From positions 1 through 48,803 of the forward strand of contig JAJZRE010000014.1 in the NCBI GenBank assembly GCA_021802945.1: 48,803 nucleotides of DNA, given 5' to 3'. The stretch comes from Pseudomonadota bacterium (GTDB lineage: Bacteria > Pseudomonadota > Gammaproteobacteria > Burkholderiales > Thiobacillaceae). A program made the translations under genes and the position numbers. The notes under the pieces are model-generated. The model did no database searches. It was given only the letters and a program-made list of their open reading frames with translations, and had not been told where the DNA came from. Positions 19,567 through 28,982 of this stretch are shown here, one piece after another; the first letter of the stretch is position 1, and each line of letters starts with the position of its first letter.

Positions 19567-19580
19567 ATATTTTAATATAT
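19567..19580. promoter_or_regulatory. AT-rich symmetric element in the gpmI/arsR divergent region
   Basis: ATATT at 19567-19571 and AATAT at 19574-19578 form an inverted repeat with a two-base spacer. It sits in a conspicuously A/T-rich patch of an otherwise GC-rich sequence. The overlapping octamer TAATATAT (19573-19580) recurs twice in the tolC promoter region (21125-21132 and 21143-21150). This could be the operator through which the ArsR-type protein controls itself. It is a weak motif on its own. Confidence 0.35.
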
Positions 19581-19698
19581 GCGTGATTGCTAATCTATAC
19601 GCAATCCGCAAAGTTGGTTTAAAAGTAACGCGCGCGGCGACATTTTGACCCAAAAGCCGAGCGCACCGTTACGCCACCGGAAGGATCGAGGAACGAAT

Positions 19699-20022
19699 AT
19701 GGCAGTTGAATGGGACGAAGTGAATCTCATGGACAAGGACGAGCACATCGAGCAGGCCTCGCGTGCGATGAAGGCCATGTCGCACCCGCTGCGCCTGAAG
19801 ATTCTCTGCGTGCTGGGCGACAAGGAAGTCAGCGTCCAGGACATCGTCGACCATGTCGGCACGTCGCAAAGCAATATCTCGCAGCACCTCGCCATCCTGC
19901 GCGACAAGGGCGTGTTGCGCACCCGCAAGGATGCCAACCGCGTGTATTACCGCGTGGGCGACACCCGCACGCTGAAGCTGCTCGGCATGATGCGCGACGT
20001 TTTCTGCGGCTTCACCAAGTAG
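19699..20022 (+). CDS. ArsR-family regulator of BigR/SqrR/YgaV type (putative persulfide sensor)
   Basis: A 107-residue winged-helix repressor: MSHPLRLKILCVLGDKEVSV, the recognition region TSQSNISQHLAILRDKGVL, and the wing RKDANRVYYRV. Two cysteines are present: C37 in LKILCVLGD and C103 in MRDVFCGFTK, separated by 66 residues. They occupy the same places, with the same spacing, as the Cys pair of BigR (C42/C108) and the pair of E. coli YgaV, where persulfides link the two and release DNA. The classical ArsR metal-site Cys motif is absent. ygaV neighbours the rhodanese gene ygaP in E. coli; here rhodanese and DUF2892 genes lie about 7 kb downstream. I infer a reactive-sulfur sensor controlling itself and probably the tolC operon. 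Confidence 0.85.
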   Translation: MAVEWDEVNLMDKDEHIEQASRAMKAMSHPLRLKILCVLGDKEVSVQDIVDHVGTSQSNISQHLAILRDKGVLRTRKDANRVYYRVGDTRTLKLLGMMRDVFCGFTK

Positions 20023-20040
20023 GCGGTACCGCATTTCCCG

Positions 20041-20070
20041 GGCCCGGCCTCGCGCAAGCGTGGCCGGGCC
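20041..20070 (+). terminator. GC-rich hairpin after the ArsR-type gene
   Basis: GGCCCGGCC (20041-20049) pairs perfectly with GGCCGGGCC (20062-20070). Inside the loop a further CGC/GCG stem closes a GCAA tetraloop. It lies 18 bases after the stop codon and is followed by TTATGTTT. It may act in both directions, since small minus-strand frames end just beyond it. Confidence 0.65.
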
Positions 20071-20090
20071 TTATGTTTCGGATGTCCCGC

Positions 20091-20192
20091 TCAATCCTGT
20101 TCCGGCACCGAGCGGTCGCGCCTTTCCTGCCAAGCCCAATACAGGGCCGGAATAACGAAAAGCGGCAACCACGGCGCGGCGATCCGCTTCAT
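20091..20192 (-). CDS. possible small membrane peptide (33 aa)
   Basis: A short frame encodes one hydrophobic helix (APWLPLFVIPALYWAW) followed by a charged tail, the layout of a single-pass small membrane protein. Its ATG overlaps the stop of another short frame (20189-20281) by four bases, the same coupling used throughout this chromosome. I know of no family for it. It could equally be chance reading in a 460-base region without a long gene. Confidence 0.28.
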   Translation of the reverse strand: MKRIAAPWLPLFVIPALYWAWQERRDRSVPEQD

Positions 20193-20281
20193 CGCTTCGG
20201 AGCCGGCACCGTCGCTGAACCGGATTTCTCGACGATCTTGTCGATATGGCGCCGCATCGCGATACCGAACTCCGCCCGCAC
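20189..20281 (-). CDS. possible small peptide (30 aa) coupled to the membrane peptide
   Basis: From a GTG at 20281 the frame reads RAEFGIAMRRHIDKIVEKSG and ends in an ATGA overlap with the 33-residue membrane frame. Codon choice (GC-rich third positions) looks coding, but there is no clear ribosome binding site and no recognised family. It may be the tail of a decayed gene. Confidence 0.22.
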   Translation of the reverse strand: MRAEFGIAMRRHIDKIVEKSGSATVPAPKR

Positions 20282-20392
20282 CCGCCAGCGCGATGCATGC
20301 GCGCCCTAAAAAAAGGACTTCGGCCGGGTCTTCATGGAACCCGAACGGCAAGCGCTCAACCCGGAATGCGCGAAGACTTGCACAATGTCCAT

Positions 20393-20421
20393 CAGACAGC
20401 GCATGCCCAGGCGGATATAAT
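20393..20421 (+). promoter_or_regulatory. sigma-70-type promoter of the nsrR-like gene
   Basis: CAGACA (20393-20398) and a perfect TATAAT (20416-20421) are separated by 17 bases, with the gene start 64 bases further on. The -35 matches four of six consensus bases. Confidence 0.55.
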
Positions 20422-20484
20422 CGAGGGCGATCGGAAAATCCAAGCACCACGCCTCATGGCATAACGAACACTGGAGGAGATGCC

Positions 20485-20961
20485 GTGCGGTTGACCAAAT
20501 TCACGGACTATTCCTTGCGCGTCGTGATTTACCTGGCGCGCAATCCGGACGGTCTGGCAACGATTGCGGACATCGCGCGCGACTACGACATCCCCTCCAC
20601 CCATCTGATGAAGGTGGTGCATCGGTTGGCGCAATGCGGCTACATCGTGACCGTGCGCGGGAAGGGCGGCGGGATGCGGCTCGCCAGATCGCCTGACATG
20701 ATCAACATCGGCGATCTGGTGCGGGACACCGAAGACAACATGGACATCGCGGAATGCTTCAGCGCCGAGCACCAGAATTGCCCGATGCTGCCCGCATGCG
20801 CACTGAAATCGGTTCTCCTCGAGGCACGCAAGAGCTTTCTGGCCACGCTGGATTTCTATCGTCTGTCGGACATCATGGGGGGCGGCGTGCCGCCGCCCGT
20901 CGCTCCCATGCTCCCCGCGCGTGGCTCATCCGCCCCTGTCGCCCCACGCAAAAAAGGATGA
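20485..20961 (+). CDS. nsrR: Rrf2-family regulator, NsrR type
   Basis: A 158-residue Rrf2 protein. The start MRLTKFTDYSLRVVIYLARN, the helix-turn-helix around ADIARDYDIPSTHLMKVVHRL, and the wing VRGKGGGMRLAR follow E. coli NsrR closely, as does the end of the core (SFLATLDFYRLSDIM). Three cysteines, C91, C99 and C105 (AECFSAEHQNCPMLPACAL), would ligate an NO-sensitive Fe-S cluster. The first spacing is seven residues rather than the four of E. coli NsrR. A Pro-rich tail of about 27 residues is added. The GTG start is fixed by a perfect GGAGGAG before it. It lies immediately upstream of the efflux operon. NO, Fe-S status or redox are possible signals. Confidence 0.82.
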   Translation: MRLTKFTDYSLRVVIYLARNPDGLATIADIARDYDIPSTHLMKVVHRLAQCGYIVTVRGKGGGMRLARSPDMINIGDLVRDTEDNMDIAECFSAEHQNCPMLPACALKSVLLEARKSFLATLDFYRLSDIMGGGVPPPVAPMLPARGSSAPVAPRKKG

Positions 20962-21105
20962 GAACCCGAGCGTCGGAGGCACCCCTCCCCCAGACCTGAC
21001 GAAGCGCCAATCGGTGCCGCGAGCCGGTTGCGTTTCGCCGACGGAAAATGCCGCGCGATGCCCGCTTCCCAGGCCAGGACGGGTTGCAGTGGCTATAAAA
21101 TCCGC

Positions 21106-21139
21106 TTGGATCGACATTAATAATTAATATATAATTATT
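21106..21139 (+). promoter_or_regulatory. tolC-operon promoter with palindromic operator over the -10 box
   Basis: TTGGAT (21106-21111) and a perfect TATAAT (21130-21135) are 18 bases apart. A perfect inverted repeat AATAATTA-N5-TAATTATT covers 21119-21139, so a bound dimer would hide the -10 box. Two copies of TAATATAT (21125-21132 and 21143-21150) lie 18 bases apart in the same stretch. The island is strikingly A/T-rich in a GC-rich genome. The candidate regulators are the two encoded just upstream (ArsR type and NsrR type). AT-rich palindromes over the -10 region are known for BigR. Confidence 0.65.
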
Positions 21140-21198
21140 CTCTAATATATTGCACGCAACCTGGCGGGCTACGCGGCCCGCCCGACACGAGGTGACGA

Positions 21199-22590
21199 AT
21201 GCAACTGACGAATACAACGCCCACCCGGCTGAAATTGCTGGACGTTCTGTGCCTGATGGCCTTCGCCACCGCCGCGCAGGCGGAAACGCTGGATTTCGCG
21301 CAGGCTGTACAGCGCGCGCTGGCGCAAAATCCGGACATCATCATCGCGGGTGCGCAGATCGGTCAGGCGCAAGCCGCGGTCAGGCAGAGCGAAGGGGCGC
21401 GCCTGCCCAAGCTGACGGCCTCGGTCAATGTCACGCGCACCAATGACGCCCTCAACGCCTTTGGCCTCAAGTTGTCGCAGCGCAACGCCACGTTCAACGA
21501 CTTCGGCGCAGCCGAGTTCACCGGCCCCGCCGCACTCAATGTCGCCCCGCAAAACCTGAACCACCCCGACCCGGTCAACAATTTCAACGCCCGCCTGGAA
21601 GCGCAGCTGCCGCTCTATACCGGCGGCATGATCGAAGGTTACTCCGAGCAGGCCAGAGCGTATTTGCGGGCGGCGCGCCAGGGCGATGCGCTGGCGCGCC
21701 AGAAGGTGATTTTCGACGTGCTGCGCGCCTACGAGGGCGTGCATGCGGCGCGCGCGTACGAGGAGGTCGCCAGGCAGGGCCGCAGCGCCGCCGAATCCTA
21801 TGTCAAGACCGTCGACAGCCTGTTCAAGGGAGGCGTGGTGGTGAAGAGCGACCTGTTGTCCGCCAGGGTGCACCTGGAGGATGTGAAGGTGCAGCAGGCG
21901 CAGGCGGAAAATGCCGTGCAGCAGGCCCTCGATCAACTCCACCTGCTGCTGGGCATGCCGCTGGCGGAGCCGCTGGACGTGGCCGGTGAGGTCGAGGTGC
22001 GGCCCCTGGCGGGCAAGCTGGCCGACTATCAGGCCGAAGCGCTCAAATCCAATCCCGGTCTGGCCGCCCTGCGCAACCAGCTGGACGCGGCACAGGCTGC
22101 GATCAAGGTGGCGCGCGCCGGAAAATACCCGCAGGCCGGGCTGCTGGCGCGTTTCGACACCAACGACGACAACGTCGGATTCGATGCCCATTCCTATACG
22201 CTGGGCGGCCAGGTGTCGTGGCAGTTGTTCGACGGCGGCGTCACCAGCGGCGCCATCCAGCGGGCCCGTGCCAGCCGCGACGAACTGGCGGCGAAGCTCG
22301 GCCAGGCCGAGAACGGCATCACCTACCAGGTGGCGGAAGCCTGGCGTCGTGCCGACGAAGCGCAGCGGCGCGTCGCGGCCCGGGAGCTCGCGGTGAGCCA
22401 GGCCGAGGAGGCCCAGCGCCTGGTGGAAAAACGCTATGCCAGCGGGGTGACGACCATCACCGAACTGCTGGGCGCCCAGGCCCAGCTGGACAAGACCCGG
22501 GCGGACCTGGTGGCAGCGCGCTATGAACTCAAGGTGCAACGCGCCAACGCCCGCCTGGCGGTCGGCCGCCTGCAACCGGACCAACTTTGA
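21199..22590 (+). CDS. TolC-family outer-membrane efflux protein
   Basis: A 463-residue outer-membrane factor. A signal peptide (LLDVLCLMAFATAAQAE) is followed by two repeats of the OEP type rich in Ala, Gln and Glu helices: LDFAQAVQRALAQNPDIIIAGAQIGQA opens the first, and NPGLAALRNQLDAAQAAIKVARAGKYPQ the second. It should form the trimeric channel and tunnel for the RND pump encoded two genes on. The start ATG at 21199 has GAGGTG a few bases upstream. It is first in a five-gene run driven by the promoter described just upstream. Confidence 0.93.
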   Translation: MQLTNTTPTRLKLLDVLCLMAFATAAQAETLDFAQAVQRALAQNPDIIIAGAQIGQAQAAVRQSEGARLPKLTASVNVTRTNDALNAFGLKLSQRNATFNDFGAAEFTGPAALNVAPQNLNHPDPVNNFNARLEAQLPLYTGGMIEGYSEQARAYLRAARQGDALARQKVIFDVLRAYEGVHAARAYEEVARQGRSAAESYVKTVDSLFKGGVVVKSDLLSARVHLEDVKVQQAQAENAVQQALDQLHLLLGMPLAEPLDVAGEVEVRPLAGKLADYQAEALKSNPGLAALRNQLDAAQAAIKVARAGKYPQAGLLARFDTNDDNVGFDAHSYTLGGQVSWQLFDGGVTSGAIQRARASRDELAAKLGQAENGITYQVAEAWRRADEAQRRVAARELAVSQAEEAQRLVEKRYASGVTTITELLGAQAQLDKTRADLVAARYELKVQRANARLAVGRLQPDQL

Positions 22591-22600
22591 GCAATCCGAC

Positions 22601-23701
22601 ATGAATCCCATGGCTAAATCCCACTTTTTGCGTATGGCCTTGCTTGGCCTGGCCGTCAGTCTGGTCAACGCTTGCGGCAAACACGAGTCCCCCGAAGAAT
22701 CGGCCGCCGCCGGCCGCACGGTGGCGGCCGCGGTGCAGACCGTGCAGCAGACCCCGTTGAGCGTGCGCGTGGAAGCACCAGGCGCCGTGGTTTCGGAAGA
22801 CCAGGTCCAGGTGGCCTCGCGGCTGATGGGTTATATCCGCGAGATCAAGGTCGAGGAGGGACAAGCGGTCAAGGCCGGTCAATTGCTGTTCGTGGTCGAT
22901 CCCGCCGATATCCAGGGGCAGATGAGCCAGGCGCGCGCCGGCCTGGCCCAGGCGGAGGCCGCGCTGGCGGACGCCAGGCTCGACTACGAGCGCTTCGGCG
23001 CGCTTTACAAGGACGAAGCCATTCCGAAGCTGCAGTGGGACAAGGTCCGTCTGCAATACCAGGTTGCCCAGCAACAGGTTGCCGCGGCCCGCGCCGGACT
23101 CGGCCTGGCGTCCGGCCAGATGCGCTATGCCTCGGTGGTCGCGCCGATCGATGGCGTCGTCACGCAGAAGCTGGCCAATGCCGGCGATCTTGCCGCCCCC
23201 GGCCGGCCCGTGCTGGTCATCGAAGGTCTGAAGAAACTCCAGGTGCGCACCCAGGTGAGCGGCGGCGTGTACGCCCGCATCAAGACCGGCGAGAAGGTCG
23301 CCATCACGCCCGATGGCGATGCAACGCAGGCGCCGATCGAAGGCGTGATCGCCCAGGTGGTGCCGGCGGCTGACCCGGTCAGCCACACCCACCTGGTGAA
23401 GATCGACCTGCCGGCAGGCAGCGGCCTCTCCAGCGGCAATTTCGTTCGCGTGGGGTTTGCCGCCGGCAGCCGCGAAGGCATCCGCGTGCCGGCCGCGGCC
23501 CTGGCCGAGCGCGCCGGCATCACCGGCGTGTTCGTGGTCGACGCCCAGGGCATCGCGCGTTATCGCATGGTGCGCACCGGCGCGGCCGGGCAGGACGGCG
23601 TGGAAATCGTGTCCGGCCTGAACCCCGGCGACAAGGTGGCCGTTTCCAACGTCAGCCAGCTGGAGAACGGCGACAAGGTGAGCGGGGCTGCCCATGACTG
23701 A
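22601..23701 (+). CDS. RND efflux membrane fusion protein
   Basis: A 366-residue periplasmic adaptor. Its hydrophobic start with a Cys (AVSLVNACGK) suggests a lipoprotein, though the residue at -2 is an unusual Asn. The half-lipoyl segments are GYIREIKVEEGQAVKAGQLLFVVDP and SVVAPIDGVVTQKLANAGDLAAPGRPVLVIE, with the alpha-helical hairpin between them, then beta-barrel and membrane-proximal domains (RVPAAALAERAGITGVFVVD). I chose the ATG at 22601 over a frame start at 22523, which lies inside tolC. Its end overlaps the start of the pump gene by eight bases. Confidence 0.93.
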   Translation: MNPMAKSHFLRMALLGLAVSLVNACGKHESPEESAAAGRTVAAAVQTVQQTPLSVRVEAPGAVVSEDQVQVASRLMGYIREIKVEEGQAVKAGQLLFVVDPADIQGQMSQARAGLAQAEAALADARLDYERFGALYKDEAIPKLQWDKVRLQYQVAQQQVAAARAGLGLASGQMRYASVVAPIDGVVTQKLANAGDLAAPGRPVLVIEGLKKLQVRTQVSGGVYARIKTGEKVAITPDGDATQAPIEGVIAQVVPAADPVSHTHLVKIDLPAGSGLSSGNFVRVGFAAGSREGIRVPAAALAERAGITGVFVVDAQGIARYRMVRTGAAGQDGVEIVSGLNPGDKVAVSNVSQLENGDKVSGAAHD

Positions 23702-26700
23702 GCGCGCCGCTCCGCTCAATATCGCCGGCAAGCTCGCCGGCGTTTTCATCGAATCCAAGATCACCGCCATGATCATGCTGGCGGTGGCGCTGGCCGGCAT
23801 GATGGCGCTGTTCGTCACGCCGCGCGAATACAACCCGCAGATCGTGGTGCCGGCAGCCAATATCATCGTCGCCAAGCCGGGCGCCTCGCCGCAGGAAATC
23901 CAGAACCTGGTCGTCAAGCCGCTGGAAGCCATCATGAACGCCCAGTCCGGCGTCGACCACACCTTTGGCTACGCCGCCCCGGACTTCGGCCTGGTGACCG
24001 TGCAGTTCAAGGTGGGGGAAGACCAGGAAAGGAGTCTGGTCAAGCTCTACAACCAGTTGATGCAGAACCTCGACCGCATGCCGCCCGGCGCGATGCAGCC
24101 GGTGGTCAAGCCGGTCAACGTCGACGACGTGCCGATCATGACGCTGACCCTGTCGTCCAGCAAGCTCGACGGTCTGCAGATCCGCCAGGTGGCGAGCCGC
24201 GTTCTGGAGCAGCTGCGCAACGTGCCCGGGGTGTCGTTCACCCAGCTCATGGGCGGCGCCCCGCGCGCGGTCAATGTCTGGATCTCGCCTGCCAGGCTGG
24301 CGGCGGCCGGCATCGCGCTCGACCAGGTGGACCAGATGCTGCAGGGGCAGAACGTCGCCGTGCCGGCCGGCACCCTGGTGGACAACAACCGGGCCTCGCC
24401 CTTGCGGGTGCAGGGTTTCCTAGGCAGCGCCCGGGAAGTGGGCGACATCGTCATCGGCGCGCCCAACGGGCGGCCGGTGTTCCTGAAGGACGTCGCCACG
24501 ATCGTGGACGGCCCCGAGGAAATCGACCAGAGCACGCGCTTTGCCTTTGGCCCCGCGGCCGGCAAGGACGCCGCGCGCGGCGAGGCGCCGGCCGTGACGC
24601 TGGCCATCGCCAAGAAGGCCGGCACCAATGCGGTGGTGGTGGCGAACGCCGTGCTGGCGAAACTCGACCAGCTGAAACGCCAGGCCATCCCCGCCGACAT
24701 CACGGTTGCGGTGACCCGCGACGACGGCGCCCGCGCCAACGATGCGGTCAACACCCTGGTCGAGCACCTGGGCATCGCCATCGGTTCGGTCGTGGTGATC
24801 CTGGTGTTCTTCCTCGGCTGGCGCGAGGCCGGCATCGTCACCCTGACCGTGCCGCTGATCCTGTTCGTGGTGCTGACCATCGGCCTGTTCGCCGGCCAGA
24901 CCATCAACCGCATCACCCTGTTCGCGCTGATCCTGTCGCTGGGCCTGCTGGTCGACGCCGCCATCGTGGTGGTGGAGAACATTCACCGCCATCTGCACCA
25001 CGGCATCGGCGACCGCGATTTCAAGGACGTCGTCATCCAGGCCACCAATGAAATCGGCAACCCCACCAACATCGCCACCATCGCGGTGATCCTGGCCTTC
25101 ATCCCGATGGCCTTCGTCACCGGCATGATGGGCCCCTTCATGCTGCCCATCCCGTTCAACGTGCCGGTGGCCATGATCGCCTCGCTGCTCATCGCCTACA
25201 TCGTGGTGCCGTGGGCGACCAACCTGTGGCTCCGCAAGAAAGCCGCGCGGAGCGAGCTCGCCCGCAAGGAAAGCCTGGAGGAAACCGGCGCGCACAAGAC
25301 CGACCGGTTGCACCGCGCCTATGTCAAGACCATCACGCCCTTCATCGAGTACAGCGGCCGCCGCAACCTGATGTTCCTCGCGGTGCTGGGCCTGCTGGTG
25401 GCGGCGATGCTGATGCCGGCGTGGCAGTTCATCCGTCCCTCGGGCATCAACGGGCCGCTGTCGGCGCTGGGGGTGGAACTGAAGATGCTGCCCAACGATA
25501 ACACCAACACCTTCCTGGTGGAAATCGACACCCCGGCCGGCACCACGCTGGAAGAAACCGACCGCGCCGCGCGTGCGGTGGGCGGGGTGCTGGCGCACAA
25601 CCGCTTCGTCACCGATTACCAGACCTTCCTCGGCATGACCGCGCCGATCGACTTCGCCGCCCTGGTGCGCGGCGACCCGATCAAGCGCGGCGACAATCTG
25701 GCGCAGATCCGCGTCAACCTGGTGGACAAGCATCGGCGTTCGACTTCGTCGCACCAGATCGTGCAGGCGCTCAACGACAGCCTCAAGCCGCTGCGCCAGG
25801 CGTTCCCGCAGGCCCGCGTCAAGCTCTACGAGACCCCGCCCGGCCCGCCGGTGCAGGCGCAGGTGCTGGCCGAGCTGTACGGGCCCGACTATGAGAAACT
25901 GCGCGGCGCCTCGCCCGAGGTGCGCCGCGCGTTCGAGTCGGTCTACGGCATGATCAACACCGACGATTCGGTGACCGCCACCACGCAGTCCTTCTCGGTG
26001 CAGGTGGACCGCGAGAAAGCCGCGCTGTCGGGCATCGTCGCCGGCCAGGTGGGCAAGCTCCTGCGCGACTACGTGTCGGGCCTGTCGATCGGCTCGGTGC
26101 ACGTCGATTCCGCGCGCGACCCCGTCAACATCGTGGTGCGCCTGCCGCGCGCGGAACGCCAGTCGCCCGAGTCGCTGATGGCGATCCGCCTGACCAACAT
26201 GATGGGCAAGCAGGTGCCGCTGGGGGCGATCGCCAGGGTGGAAACCGTCCCCTACGGCAAACCCGTCTACGACCGCGACCAGCATCCCATGGTCATGGTG
26301 GGCGGCGAAATGATCACCTCCAGCCCGGTCTATGCCGTACTGGCGCTGGACAAGATGCTGGACGGCACCCTGCTGCCCAATGGCGTGCGCTTCAAGACCG
26401 GCAATCTGGGCTTCACCCAGGCGACGCCGGACGACGTCACCGGCTACCACCTGCTGTGGGGCGGGGAAATGCGCCTGACCCTGGACGTGTTCCGCGACCT
26501 CGGATCGGCGTTCATCATCGCCCTGGTGTTCATCTACCTGCTGCTGGTGGGCTACTACAAGTCCTTCATCATGCCGATGATCGTGATGGGCGCCATTCCG
26601 CTCACGCTGATAGGCGTCTTCCCCGGCCACTGGGCGACCAGCCAGGCTTTCACCGCCACCTCGATGATCGGCGTCATCGCCCTGGCCGGCATCGTGGTGC

Positions 26701-26978
26701 GCAACTCGCTGCTGCTGATCGACTTCATCGTCGATTACCGCGCCCAGGGCTACGGCCTCAAGGAGGCCGTGATCGAGGCCGGCGCCGTGCGGCTGCGGCC
26801 GATCCTGCTGACCGCGTTGGCCATCATCCTGGGATCGGCCATCATGATCACCGACCCGGTGTTCGGCGGGCTGGCCGTTTCGCTGATTTTCGGCACCTTC
26901 GCCTCCACCGCGCTGACCCTGGTCGTCATCCCGCTGCTGTACTACATCTGGCAAAAGCGCAGCGAGCCCCGTGCTTGA
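23694..26978 (+). CDS. RND efflux pump (inner-membrane permease) with non-canonical proton-relay residues
   Basis: A 1094-residue pump of the AcrB/CzcA superfamily with duplicated 6-helix bundles and large periplasmic loops. TM4 reads SLGLLVDAAIVVVENIHRH: D421 matches AcrB D407, but the D408 position is Ala422, as in heavy-metal pumps of the CusA type. In the second half IALAGIVVRNSLLLIDF has Arg where AcrB has the essential K940. These features separate it from the drug-efflux group without making it a clear metal pump. It overlaps the fusion-protein gene by eight bases and is followed by DUF2892 and rhodanese genes, which suggests a link to reactive sulfur species or thiol-bound substrates (inference). 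Confidence 0.9.
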   Translation: MTERAAPLNIAGKLAGVFIESKITAMIMLAVALAGMMALFVTPREYNPQIVVPAANIIVAKPGASPQEIQNLVVKPLEAIMNAQSGVDHTFGYAAPDFGLVTVQFKVGEDQERSLVKLYNQLMQNLDRMPPGAMQPVVKPVNVDDVPIMTLTLSSSKLDGLQIRQVASRVLEQLRNVPGVSFTQLMGGAPRAVNVWISPARLAAAGIALDQVDQMLQGQNVAVPAGTLVDNNRASPLRVQGFLGSAREVGDIVIGAPNGRPVFLKDVATIVDGPEEIDQSTRFAFGPAAGKDAARGEAPAVTLAIAKKAGTNAVVVANAVLAKLDQLKRQAIPADITVAVTRDDGARANDAVNTLVEHLGIAIGSVVVILVFFLGWREAGIVTLTVPLILFVVLTIGLFAGQTINRITLFALILSLGLLVDAAIVVVENIHRHLHHGIGDRDFKDVVIQATNEIGNPTNIATIAVILAFIPMAFVTGMMGPFMLPIPFNVPVAMIASLLIAYIVVPWATNLWLRKKAARSELARKESLEETGAHKTDRLHRAYVKTITPFIEYSGRRNLMFLAVLGLLVAAMLMPAWQFIRPSGINGPLSALGVELKMLPNDNTNTFLVEIDTPAGTTLEETDRAARAVGGVLAHNRFVTDYQTFLGMTAPIDFAALVRGDPIKRGDNLAQIRVNLVDKHRRSTSSHQIVQALNDSLKPLRQAFPQARVKLYETPPGPPVQAQVLAELYGPDYEKLRGASPEVRRAFESVYGMINTDDSVTATTQSFSVQVDREKAALSGIVAGQVGKLLRDYVSGLSIGSVHVDSARDPVNIVVRLPRAERQSPESLMAIRLTNMMGKQVPLGAIARVETVPYGKPVYDRDQHPMVMVGGEMITSSPVYAVLALDKMLDGTLLPNGVRFKTGNLGFTQATPDDVTGYHLLWGGEMRLTLDVFRDLGSAFIIALVFIYLLLVGYYKSFIMPMIVMGAIPLTLIGVFPGHWATSQAFTATSMIGVIALAGIVVRNSLLLIDFIVDYRAQGYGLKEAVIEAGAVRLRPILLTALAIILGSAIMITDPVFGGLAVSLIFGTFASTALTLVVIPLLYYIWQKRSEPRA

Positions 26979-27030
26979 AAAAAACATGGGCGGCCCTTAT
27001 CTTTTCCATTGTTTCTCTGAGGAATACATC

Positions 27031-27249
27031 ATGACCGTTGAACGTTTGGTCCGCATCATCGCCGGATTTTTCATCATGCTTTCGCTCGCGTTGGCGCATT
27101 TTTCCGGCACCGTCGACATGAGCCACGTGTCATGGCTGTGGTTCACCGCCTTCGTCGGCTTCAACCTGTTCCAGTCCGGCCTCACGCGCTTCTGCCCGAT
27201 GGACATCATGCTGAAGAAGGCCGGGGTCAAAACCGGCTGCGGCCTGTAA
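27031..27249 (+). CDS. DUF2892 small membrane protein (YgaP-tail-like)
   Basis: A 72-residue protein with two membrane helices (IIAGFFIMLSLALAHF and WLWFTAFVGFNLFQSGL) and the conserved end TRFCPMDIMLKKAG, with C55 and a near-terminal C70. The same module forms the C-terminal membrane domain of E. coli YgaP, where it is fused to a rhodanese domain; here the rhodanese is the next gene, 11 bases away. The ATG at 27031 is preceded by GAGGA. It likely dimerises in the membrane and may hand sulfur species to or from the rhodanese. Confidence 0.9.
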   Translation: MTVERLVRIIAGFFIMLSLALAHFSGTVDMSHVSWLWFTAFVGFNLFQSGLTRFCPMDIMLKKAGVKTGCGL

Positions 27250-27260
27250 GGGGAAAATGG

Positions 27261-27674
27261 ATGGATGTTCAATTCCTGCAGCAGAACTGGATGCTGGCGG
27301 CGGTGGCGGCGGTATCCGGCGCCATGCTGGTGTGGTCCTTCATCGGCGGCAAGCTGTCCGGCATCGAGGAAGCCGATACGCTGAAAGCCACCCGCCTCTA
27401 CAACGACGATGCCCTGGTGCTCGACGTGCGCGAGGACAAGGAATTTGCCGCGGGCCACATTCCCAAGGCCAAACACATCCCGCTCGGGCAGCTGGCCGGC
27501 CGCATGAAGGAGCTCGACAAGTTCAAGGACAAGCCGATCCTGGTCACCTGCCGCAGCGGCCAGCGCTCGGCGCGCGCCTGCGGCATGCTGAAAAAGGCCG
27601 GTTTCGAGACCGTGTACAACCAGGCGGGCGGCATCATCGCGTGGGAACGCGCCAACCTGCCCGTCGCCAAGTAA
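27261..27674 (+). CDS. membrane-anchored rhodanese-like sulfurtransferase
   Basis: A 137-residue protein with an N-terminal membrane helix (WMLAAVAAVSGAMLVWSFIGG) and one rhodanese domain. The active loop is C97-R-S-G-Q-R-S, preceded by LVLDVRE and EFAAGHIPKAKHIPL, which are the standard CH2A-like and structural motifs. C97 would carry the persulfide; a second Cys, C107, lies close by. Together with the preceding DUF2892 protein it recreates the parts of YgaP in split form. The domain probably faces the cytoplasm if the anchor inserts N-out (inference). It ends the efflux run and precedes glutaredoxin by 14 bases. Confidence 0.92.
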   Translation: MDVQFLQQNWMLAAVAAVSGAMLVWSFIGGKLSGIEEADTLKATRLYNDDALVLDVREDKEFAAGHIPKAKHIPLGQLAGRMKELDKFKDKPILVTCRSGQRSARACGMLKKAGFETVYNQAGGIIAWERANLPVAK

Positions 27675-27688
27675 CCCAGGAAACCCCC

Positions 27689-27952
27689 ATGGCCAAAGTC
27701 GTGATGTACTGCACCGCCGTCTGTCCCTACTGCATCGCCGCGGAGCGCCTGCTCAAGAGCCGCGGCGTCGCCGAGATCGAAAAGATCCGCATCGACCTCG
27801 ATCCGGCGAAGCAGGAGGAAATGATCGCCCGCTCCGGCGGCCGCCGCACCGTCCCGCAGGTCTTCATCGGCGACACCCATGTCGGCGGCTTCGACGACAC
27901 CTCGGCGCTCGACGCCGCCGGCGAGCTGGCGCCGCTGCTCGCCCGCGCCTGA
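27689..27952 (+). CDS. grxC: glutaredoxin 3
   Basis: An 87-residue dithiol glutaredoxin. The active site is C12-P-Y-C15, with the cis-Pro motif TVPQVFIG and the GSH-binding GGFDD typical of Grx3. It reduces glutathione-mixed disulfides and supports ribonucleotide reductase; glutaredoxins also act on glutathione persulfides. The ATG at 27689 is the first Met of the domain. It follows the rhodanese closely and is probably part of the same transcript or of the downstream trxC-secB group. Confidence 0.93.
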   Translation: MAKVVMYCTAVCPYCIAAERLLKSRGVAEIEKIRIDLDPAKQEEMIARSGGRRTVPQVFIGDTHVGGFDDTSALDAAGELAPLLARA

Positions 27953-28031: not shown

Positions 28032-28460
28032 ATGGAACTCGCCTGCCCCCACTGCCTCGCCGTCAACCGCGTGCCGGACGACCGGCTGGCGAATGCCCCC
28101 AAGTGCGGCAAATGCGGCACGCCGCTGCTGCCCGGCAAGCCGGTGGATCTCACCGCCGACACGTTCGACCGCTTCATCGCCAGGGCCGGCCTGCCTGTGC
28201 TGGTCGATTTCTGGGCCGGCTGGTGCGGCCCCTGCAAGATGATGGCGCCGGTGTTCCAGCAGGCCGCCGCCGAGATGGGCACGCGCGTGCGCTTTGCCAA
28301 GGTCGACACCGAAGCGCATCCGCAAGTGTCGATGCGCCACCACATCAAGGGCATCCCCAGCCTGATCCTGTTCAGGAATGGCAGCGAAGCGGCGCGCATC
28401 TCGGGCGCGATGGAAGCCCATGCGCTGAAACGCTGGCTGGCGTCGCAGGGCATTCAATAA
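28032..28460 (+). CDS. trxC: thioredoxin 2 with N-terminal zinc ribbon
   Basis: A 142-residue thioredoxin of the TrxC type. The zinc ribbon uses C5, C8, C25 and C28 (ACPHCL and KCGKCG), and the thioredoxin active site is W64-C-G-P-C68 in FWAGWCGPCKMM, with the cis-Pro loop KGIPSLILF. TrxC is an oxidative-stress thioredoxin whose redox potential is tuned by the ribbon. Its place beside grxC and the rhodanese fits a thiol-repair neighbourhood. The length is as expected (E. coli 139). Confidence 0.94.
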   Translation: MELACPHCLAVNRVPDDRLANAPKCGKCGTPLLPGKPVDLTADTFDRFIARAGLPVLVDFWAGWCGPCKMMAPVFQQAAAEMGTRVRFAKVDTEAHPQVSMRHHIKGIPSLILFRNGSEAARISGAMEAHALKRWLASQGIQ

Positions 28461-28484: not shown

Positions 28485-28502
28485 CCGGAGCGCACGCTCC
28501 GG
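28485..28502 (+). terminator. tight hairpin between trxC and secB
   Basis: CCGGAGCG (28485-28492) and CGCTCCGG (28495-28502) form a perfect stem with an effective four-base loop, followed by TTTCTTATT. It ends 21 bases before the secB start, so it may terminate trxC transcripts or sit in the secB leader. Confidence 0.5.
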
Positions 28503-28523: not shown

Positions 28524-28982
28524 ATGGCCGACGCGCAGCAACCCGTATTCAACATCGAAAAACTCTACGTCAAGGACCTGTCGGTGGAAGTGCCCAACGC
28601 ACCCGGCATCTACCTGGAACGCGAGGCCCCGCAGATCGAAGTCAACATGTCGACCGAAAGCCGCGCACTGGGCGAGGATCTGTACCACTCCGGCATCACC
28701 GTCACCGTCACGGCCAAGACCGGTGACAAGACCATGTTCCTGGTCGAATGCACCCAGGCCGGCATCTTCCGCATCGAACACGTGCCGCAGGACCAGCTGC
28801 CCATGGTGCTGGGCATCGGCTGCCCCAACATCGTCTTCCCGTATCTGCGCGAAACCGTGTCCGACGTGGTGATCCGCGCTGGCTTCCCGCCGCTGCTGCT
28901 GAACCCGGTCAACTTCGAATCGCTGTTCCTGCAGCAACAGCAGGCGCAACAGCAACAGGCCGCCCCTGCGCAAACCCATTGA
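28524..28982 (+). CDS. secB: protein-export chaperone SecB
   Basis: A 152-residue tetrameric chaperone that keeps precursors unfolded and delivers them to SecA. Family landmarks are FNIEKLYVKDLSVEVPNAP near the start, the central ECTQAGIFRIEHV, the CPNIVFPYLRETVSDVVIRAGFPPLLLNPVNFESLF block and a Gln-rich tail. The start at 28524 has GGGAGA upstream. The grxC-trxC-secB-gpsA order is common in proteobacteria and supports the assignment. Confidence 0.96.
   Translation: MADAQQPVFNIEKLYVKDLSVEVPNAPGIYLEREAPQIEVNMSTESRALGEDLYHSGITVTVTAKTGDKTMFLVECTQAGIFRIEHVPQDQLPMVLGIGCPNIVFPYLRETVSDVVIRAGFPPLLLNPVNFESLFLQQQQAQQQQAAPAQTH

Follow-up and report, generated by a model that had tools for sequence, protein, structure and literature searches.

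A tripartite RND pump and a DUF2892 protein in a predicted persulfide-response operon of a Thiobacillaceae bacterium: a probable arm of the reactive-sulfur response

Introduction

Why should a tripartite RND efflux pump lie between an ArsR-family regulator and a rhodanese? The question is raised by a stretch of 48,803 nucleotides from a Pseudomonadota bacterium of the family Thiobacillaceae (GenBank assembly GCA_021802945.1, contig JAJZRE010000014.1, forward strand), hereafter the window, which is one contig of a 2.55-Mb assembly that is 87.6% complete. The gene order is gpmI (on the minus strand), arsR, rrf2, tolC, adaptor, RND, DUF2892, rhodanese, grxC, trxC and secB. A previous sequence-only reading of this DNA had taken the genes from arsR to the rhodanese gene for one reactive-sulfur response system, and its gene set and order were confirmed, every gene that it named being an intact open reading frame on the plus strand and in the order given. 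As its control site also precedes sulfur-carrier genes, the pump probably serves as an arm of the reactive-sulfur response of the cell, and we propose that the RND pump and DUF2892 may have been inserted into an older persulfide-response operon, arsR-rhodanese-glutaredoxin-secB.

Results

The pump comprises a TolC-family outer membrane channel (21199..22590, plus strand; Pfam OEP, 195 bits), a periplasmic adaptor (22601..23701, plus; TIGR01730, 225 bits, above the cut-off) and an RND permease of what is here called type B (23694..26978, plus; Pfam ACR_tran, 520 bits). Channel, adaptor and ACR_tran permease thus stand in one operon, as judged from spacing alone. They are followed by a small membrane protein of the DUF2892 family (27031..27249, plus; Pfam YgaP-like_TM, 54 bits for a cut-off of 25) and by a rhodanese with a hydrophobic N-terminus and a CRSGQRS loop (27261..27674, plus; matched by rhodanese structures in the PDB). 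Ten base pairs separate the channel and adaptor genes, the adaptor and RND reading frames overlap by 8 bp, and the gaps from RND to DUF2892 and from DUF2892 to rhodanese are 52 and 11 bp. In the stretch from RND to rhodanese no terminator-like site was found, and a weak promoter-like match was present at 26975-27003. The permease scored below the cut-off of all 14 NCBIfam models that it matched (best 429 versus 1250 bits). In its transmembrane segment 4, Asp-Ala replaces Asp-Asp; among 97 members of its clade, 18 carried Asp-Ala and 70 Asp-Asp at this place, and nine were not matched by the pattern.

The rhodanese gene is part of an older operon, arsR-rhd-(grx)-secB, from which the pump is usually missing. 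Of 80 named loci with this ArsR, 67 encoded a rhodanese and 65 SecB, and arsR-rhd-secB was a frequent order, seen in Chromatiales, Rhodocyclaceae and others. Among the 55 of these loci with enough flanking sequence, 47 had a rhodanese and 11 a DUF2892 gene, eight of the 11 together with a pump in the slot between arsR and rhodanese. An RND gene occupied that slot in nine of the 55, and DUF2892 accompanied it in eight of the nine, as against three of the 46 slots without a pump (Fisher test, p about 1e-6, relatedness ignored). DUF2892 therefore tracks the pump, not the rhodanese. The two genes had been regarded as a split YgaP, a protein which, as the Pfam name also indicates, carries a DUF2892-type membrane part as well; the disparity between 47 and 11 of 55 loci leads us to reject this, the rhodanese belonging to the older operon and DUF2892 going with the pump.

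The association was also seen from the side of the pump. In relatives, DUF2892 was found near 34 of 36 RND genes of the same clade and near none of 40 other RND genes, both being chosen, non-random samples: the former are clade loci of relatives and the latter were picked as controls from many low-identity RND matches. The 36 consisted of a first set, where DUF2892 lay within 5 kb of 20/20 clade genes, and a second (L228-L243), where it stood beside 14/16, L229 and L231 being the exceptions. DUF2892 also follows clade pumps with no rhodanese found nearby, for example in L130-L135. Across the class, 60 clade loci were sampled, mostly top-scoring and drawn from 144 genomes with a match: DUF2892 was near 13, an ArsR with the cysteine pair described below near 12, and both near eight, in varying arrangements. 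Since the profiles for DUF2892, ArsR and rhodanese neighbours were grown from the window locus, distant forms may be missed in these counts. On the RND tree, proximity to DUF2892 requires at least 10 changes. The neighbourhood survey that the sequence-only reading had suggested, of this pump clade with a DUF2892-rhodanese unit, thus bore out the link between pump and DUF2892 (34/36 versus 0/40) and not the unity of DUF2892 with the rhodanese.

On several occasions the pump has been exchanged in place and the genes around it kept. In 25 members of the genus, the slot held a tripartite type-B pump in eight, the window included, with orthologs at 91-94% identity in the other seven, and an adaptor-RND pump of type A in 17; the two types are about 40% identical. 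Trees of the flanking genes grouped the window and G013, which have type B, with G005 and G016, which have type A, and on these trees the pump type switches 4-5 times, 2-3 of the switches being forced by well-supported branches. Across 13 genus loci, DUF2892 was 88-92% identical to that of the window beside type A and 76-93% beside type B; because it is equally similar beside either pump, the exchange left it untouched.

The product of arsR (19699..20022, plus) is predicted to be a persulfide-sensing repressor of the SqrR/BigR/YgaV type. Its best matches in a PDB search were BigR (3pqj), HlyU and YgaV (3cuo), and further down came 6o8l, an ArsR-family entry which we take to be SqrR. With the ATG at 19699 as the first codon, its two cysteines are Cys37 and Cys103, and they match those of BigR and HlyU in helices alpha2 and alpha5 of the alignments. 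The pair was invariant in 16/16 aligned ArsR proteins and, as judged by eye, present in 25 of 30 ArsR-like reading frames from the examined loci and the window; the five without it were two in L054 and one each in L042, L125 and L143. In characterised homologs, a polysulfide bridge is formed between the two cysteines, according to sections of PMC12423496 and PMC10509353. Named sequences closest to this ArsR included those of Thiobacillus metagenome-assembled genomes, at 92-97%, and the host very probably belongs to that genus. Since it scored 75.4 bits with the NCBIfam BigR model, whose cut-off is 155, the protein is not classed as BigR itself. The expectation of a sulfur-type regulator beside the pump gains support from this ArsR, which has both sensing cysteines of BigR, SqrR and YgaV. 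As a separate observation, L125 and L143 hold a gene for an ArsR-rhodanese fusion protein, divergent from the TolC-adaptor-RND-DUF2892 run; the pump clade thus has a regulator of a second sulfur type as neighbour.

Alignment of pump upstream regions yielded the palindrome ATTAG-N6-CTAAT before type-A pumps. The exact site was present in 14 of the 15 type-A pump regions examined, two other families included, and in nine of the 12 named pump loci that were checked. In the genus, type-B pumps had ATAAT-N6-CTAAT, with the same position and half-sites, in 8/8 cases. Among tripartite pumps of other loci, the exact site occurred in L252, L254 and L257, two of them with G+C-rich spacers, L255 had one mismatch and L258 no site. 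In its ATTA-N8-TAAT geometry the shared site has the spacing of the deduced SqrR site, which is given as ATTC-N8-GAAT in the part of PMC9774250 at hand.

At up to two mismatches to ATTAG-N6-CTAAT, the window held five matches, two of which fell in the region upstream of tolC and in the arsR-gpmI block. The former is the candidate pump operator, ATAATTATTCTCTAAT (21131..21146, no strand assigned), and the latter a candidate weak operator, ATGCGTGATTGCTAAT (19579..19594, no strand assigned), each with two mismatches. The gpmI-arsR intergenic block is conserved in 22 aligned genus loci, of which 17 keep the site at two mismatches. A site as good was also found in 99 of 1000 shuffles of the gpmI-arsR block and in 76 of 1000 for the tolC upstream region. 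A perfect palindrome before tolC, AATAATTA-N5-TAATTATT, had been considered as an operator and was discarded, being present in the window and missing from the other loci listed.

These results bear on whether the slot simply tolerates a general multidrug or solvent pump whose neighbours are accidental. Such a pump would fit the class-wide sample, where DUF2892 was missing near 47 of the 60 clade loci and a Cys-pair ArsR near 48, and the clade lies within the same large superfamily as drug pumps. We nevertheless judge it unlikely, as one slot houses two pump types of about 40% identity, both with operators of the same kind and both with DUF2892, a gene that the 40 other RND loci lacked.

The site is not confined to pumps. 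In 15 whole genomes of the genus it occurred exactly 61 times, compared with seven times for a control, the reversed pattern. Thirty-six of the 61 lay before four kinds of gene: the pump (10), a rhodanese-tusA-dsrE2 run (14), an exported DUF302 protein (9) and a peroxiredoxin (3). In 10 of the 14 rhodanese-tusA-dsrE2 cases, the site ended 2-26 bp before the called rhodanese start. At one of the three peroxiredoxin sites (L362), the next gene encodes a metallo-beta-lactamase-fold protein with a partial match to Blh. The remaining 25 sites lay at the end of dnaE (13), before a DUF4212-symporter pair (8) or elsewhere (4). Classes were set by eye, except for the ten pump sites, which were set by coordinates, and all 51 non-pump sites were inspected; L357 and L395 were classed through a dsrE2 gene about 0.8 kb away, L366 through a dnaE fragment and L405 through a shared neighbour. 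Family assignments were verified on examples for Rhodanese, TusA, DsrE2 (above cut-off), DUF302, peroxiredoxin and DUF4212. In Rhodobacter capsulatus, peroxiredoxin, sulfurtransferase and rhodanese genes are among those whose expression rises more than 10-fold with sulfide and on loss of sqrR, according to the portion of PMC9995734 available.

Two of the other classes deserve a description of their own. The dnaE-end sites (L344, L346, L350, L355, L360, L365, L366, L367, L372, L374, L377, L399 and L402) were mostly between convergent dnaE and acylphosphatase or metG genes, for no evident reason, and one was also seen in another family (L411, in G049). The pair of DUF4212 and sodium:solute symporter genes had its upstream site, with variable spacers, in L349, L352, L368, L396, L397, L401 and L403.

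Beyond the family, the exact site preceded a DUF302 gene in G049 and a TolC-like gene, trxC and a C_GCAxxG_C_C family protein in G059; this last protein, with the site just before its gene in L391 and L408, is putatively redox-active. In G051 the site stood between the gene for a Cys-pair ArsR and one like Blh/ETHE1, whose product matched the dioxygenase half of the Blh model with 366 bits (cut-off 625) and which is followed by adaptor, RND and DUF2892 genes. The same search gave no site in G055, G057, G052 and G043, and in G050 sites were fewer than controls. For 250 genomes of the order, occurrence of the site was then compared with that of this ArsR, scored as present when matched with E at most 1e-30. 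The 97 genomes with the ArsR held 244 sites versus 56 controls, and sites outnumbered controls in 76 of them; the 153 without it held 231 sites versus 208 controls, with an excess of sites in 29 (Mann-Whitney p about 1e-16, uncorrected and with relatedness ignored). Sites were located 84 bp upstream of the ArsR match in G342, and 72 and 111 bp past its 3' end in G358 and G388.

The Rrf2 gene (20485..20961, plus) proved to have another history. Its product is NsrR/RirA-like: Asp8 and three cysteines align with those of NsrR (5n07), residues which we take to be the NsrR cluster ligands, and it scored below both NCBIfam cut-offs (NsrR, 118 versus 182 bits; RirA, 125 versus 193). It was present at the locus in 4 of 25 mapped genus members, namely the window, G013, G005 and G016; G030, counted among the 21 without it, lacks sequence upstream. 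An island of some 8 kb separates arsR from rrf2 in G013 and G016, and in G005 arsR and cusA are on one contig, rrf2 and the pump on another. The island of G013 encodes a CusA (above the CusA/CzcA cut-off), a CusB-like adaptor, two cytochromes c, a second copper oxidase and a copper-nitrite-reductase-like protein (200 bits versus a cut-off of 296). Pieces of the 3' end of the island cusA are kept in the 463-bp gap between arsR and rrf2 of the window, where the segment 20126..20295 (minus strand) is what erosion has left of the 3' end of a gene for a CusA-type RND protein; blastn placed it within the intact cusA genes of sister species (L224, L225, L226), of which that of L224 scored above the CusA/CzcA cut-off. 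Compared with plasmid records, the gap gave one short RND match, pointing to the cusA remnant.

The Rrf2 gene is therefore the leftover edge of a cusA/copper-oxidase island of foreign origin, eroded in the window, and it is probably outside the pump system. A role as co-regulator, with which the sequence-only reading had included it in the system, is not supported, given this origin and its occurrence at the locus in only 4/25 genus members. It would otherwise have been conceivable that the pump responds to nitric oxide or copper by way of this regulator, which lies directly upstream in the window and in sister genomes borders the cusA/copper-oxidase island. In 21 of the 25 genus members, however, G030 with its missing upstream sequence among them, no such gene was found at the locus, and the pump operator was the same with or without rrf2, which makes this explanation highly improbable.

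Downstream of the rhodanese gene, and 14 bp from it, the older operon continues with glutaredoxin GrxC (27689..27952, plus; TIGR02181), thioredoxin TrxC (28032..28460, plus; NF008229) and SecB (28524..28982, plus; TIGR00809), all above their cut-offs. A terminator-like hairpin was seen at 28485-28502, between trxC and secB, such matches numbering seven versus a shuffle mean of 7.4; because it precedes secB, that gene may be transcribed separately. No dioxygenase gene was found within the window locus. The genome itself contains dsrA and soxB, both above their cut-offs, and therefore the host probably oxidises sulfur compounds.

Discussion

The mechanism that we propose runs as follows. Reduced ArsR would bind ATTAG-N6-CTAAT-type sites at the promoters of the pump, rhodanese-tusA-dsrE2, DUF302 and peroxiredoxin genes and repress them. 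As sulfane sulfur rises during oxidation of sulfide or thiosulfate, a polysulfide bridge between Cys37 and Cys103, by analogy with the characterised homologs, would release the protein from DNA. Cytoplasmic carriers would then pass sulfane sulfur on to oxidation, and the pump, with DUF2892 as its membrane partner, would expel an overflow product, possibly polysulfide, a conjugate of a thiol or a small molecule damaged by sulfur; this last step is the weakest. Derepression by reactive sulfur, as suggested earlier, is favoured in our view by the persulfide-type ArsR beside the pump and by a site common to sulfane-sulfur carriers, and the part once assigned to an NsrR-like regulator falls away. 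Taken together, an older persulfide-response operon with an inserted pump and DUF2892, a regulon of ArsR sites and the export of overflow is a reading that we hold with slightly better than even confidence, its regulatory part being moderately supported.

Several points weigh against this reading. Independent pairs on the RND tree gave no significant correlation between the proximity of ArsR and that of DUF2892 (median p 0.45), and within the seven families that hold genomes with and without this ArsR, its link to the site was not significant (p=0.16). The two candidate sites of the window are degenerate, with their two mismatches each, and individually weak; the sites at the end of dnaE, before the DUF4212-symporter pair and elsewhere have no clear sulfur role. 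In the 80 named loci, a few of which have less flank, no exact site was found within 350 bp upstream of arsR, and an exact site beyond arsR was present in 8 of 11 pump loci versus 1 of 69 others, the single exception (L246) having an adaptor gene and a contig that ends before RND. Lastly, it is only by inference that we ascribe to the pump the export of a sulfur overflow product, its substrate and direction included.

Because the site was absent upstream of arsR, and beyond arsR was present only where pump genes follow, it could be bound by another regulator. In that case a different sulfur- or redox-responsive protein would bind the site and ArsR would control the older operon alone, through a site like ATTAT-N3-ATAAT, which 11 of 63 diverse loci carry upstream of arsR, for a shuffle mean of 0.02. 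A width-19 palindromic model built from 61 arsR upstream regions was not significant in 22 Thiobacillus arsR upstream regions (p 0.08-0.80). Enrichment of the site, on the other hand, goes with the presence of this ArsR; in G342 the site does lie upstream of arsR, and in G051 between a Cys-pair ArsR gene and the run of dioxygenase-like and pump genes. A different regulator thus seems to us a minority possibility, less than likely though worth keeping in mind. ArsR is the best candidate for binding ATTAG-N6-CTAAT, because enrichment follows it, yet its own upstream region goes without the exact site.

Three known systems resemble the one described here. In ygaV-ygaP of E. coli, a SqrR/BigR-type ArsR repressor also adjoins a rhodanese and sulfide derepresses, according to excerpts of PMC9774250; that operon has no pump, whereas the window has one gene for the rhodanese and another for DUF2892, the latter placed after the pump. 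The SqrR regulon of R. capsulatus likewise unites a Cys-pair ArsR with peroxiredoxin, sulfurtransferase and rhodanese (PMC9995734, in part) and has a site of the same spacing (PMC9774250, in part), but the half-site here is ATTAG, and no RND pump is named for R. capsulatus in the available portion of PMC9995734. BigR with Blh/PDO, in Xylella and Acinetobacter, combines a Cys-pair ArsR with a persulfide dioxygenase, as does G051, where the Blh/ETHE1-like gene precedes the pump; unlike it, the window locus has no dioxygenase and its ArsR falls short of the BigR cut-off (75 versus 155 bits).

The sequence-only reading had known of no described system with this composition, a statement to be qualified: RND pumps adjacent to ArsR genes are already on record, since PMC12423496, in the sections available, reports them beside sulfane-sulfur ArsR genes as a genomic association and suggests transport of sulfur compounds. 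In section 2.1 of that paper, nothing is said of DUF2892, the replacement of pumps or a common site. In the open-licence literature, no paper linking DUF2892 with RND efflux or YgaP was found and, among the matches listed, none evidently describes this set of sites; secB was absent from the listed matches on rhodanese, glutaredoxin and sulfur oxidation. What is new is the site common to pump and sulfur-carrier genes, and ygaV-ygaP is a close relative without a pump.

Sulfur oxidisers face large fluxes of toxic sulfane sulfur. For them we tentatively advance, as a joint claim that is somewhat doubtful in its entirety, that the RND pump may be a dedicated export arm under one ArsR and its operator, with distant pumps interchangeable and DUF2892 as the pump-specific partner, in a regulon whose cytoplasmic members would be rhodanese-TusA-DsrE2 and peroxiredoxin or dioxygenase. 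Replacement in the same slot under one kind of operator would tie the function to the slot and not to the lineage of the pump. DUF2892 and DUF302, families of unknown role, would become tied to the reactive-sulfur response, and the site shared by pump and carrier genes offers a cheap test, with one protein and one DNA site, of a role for RND pumps in reactive-sulfur defence.

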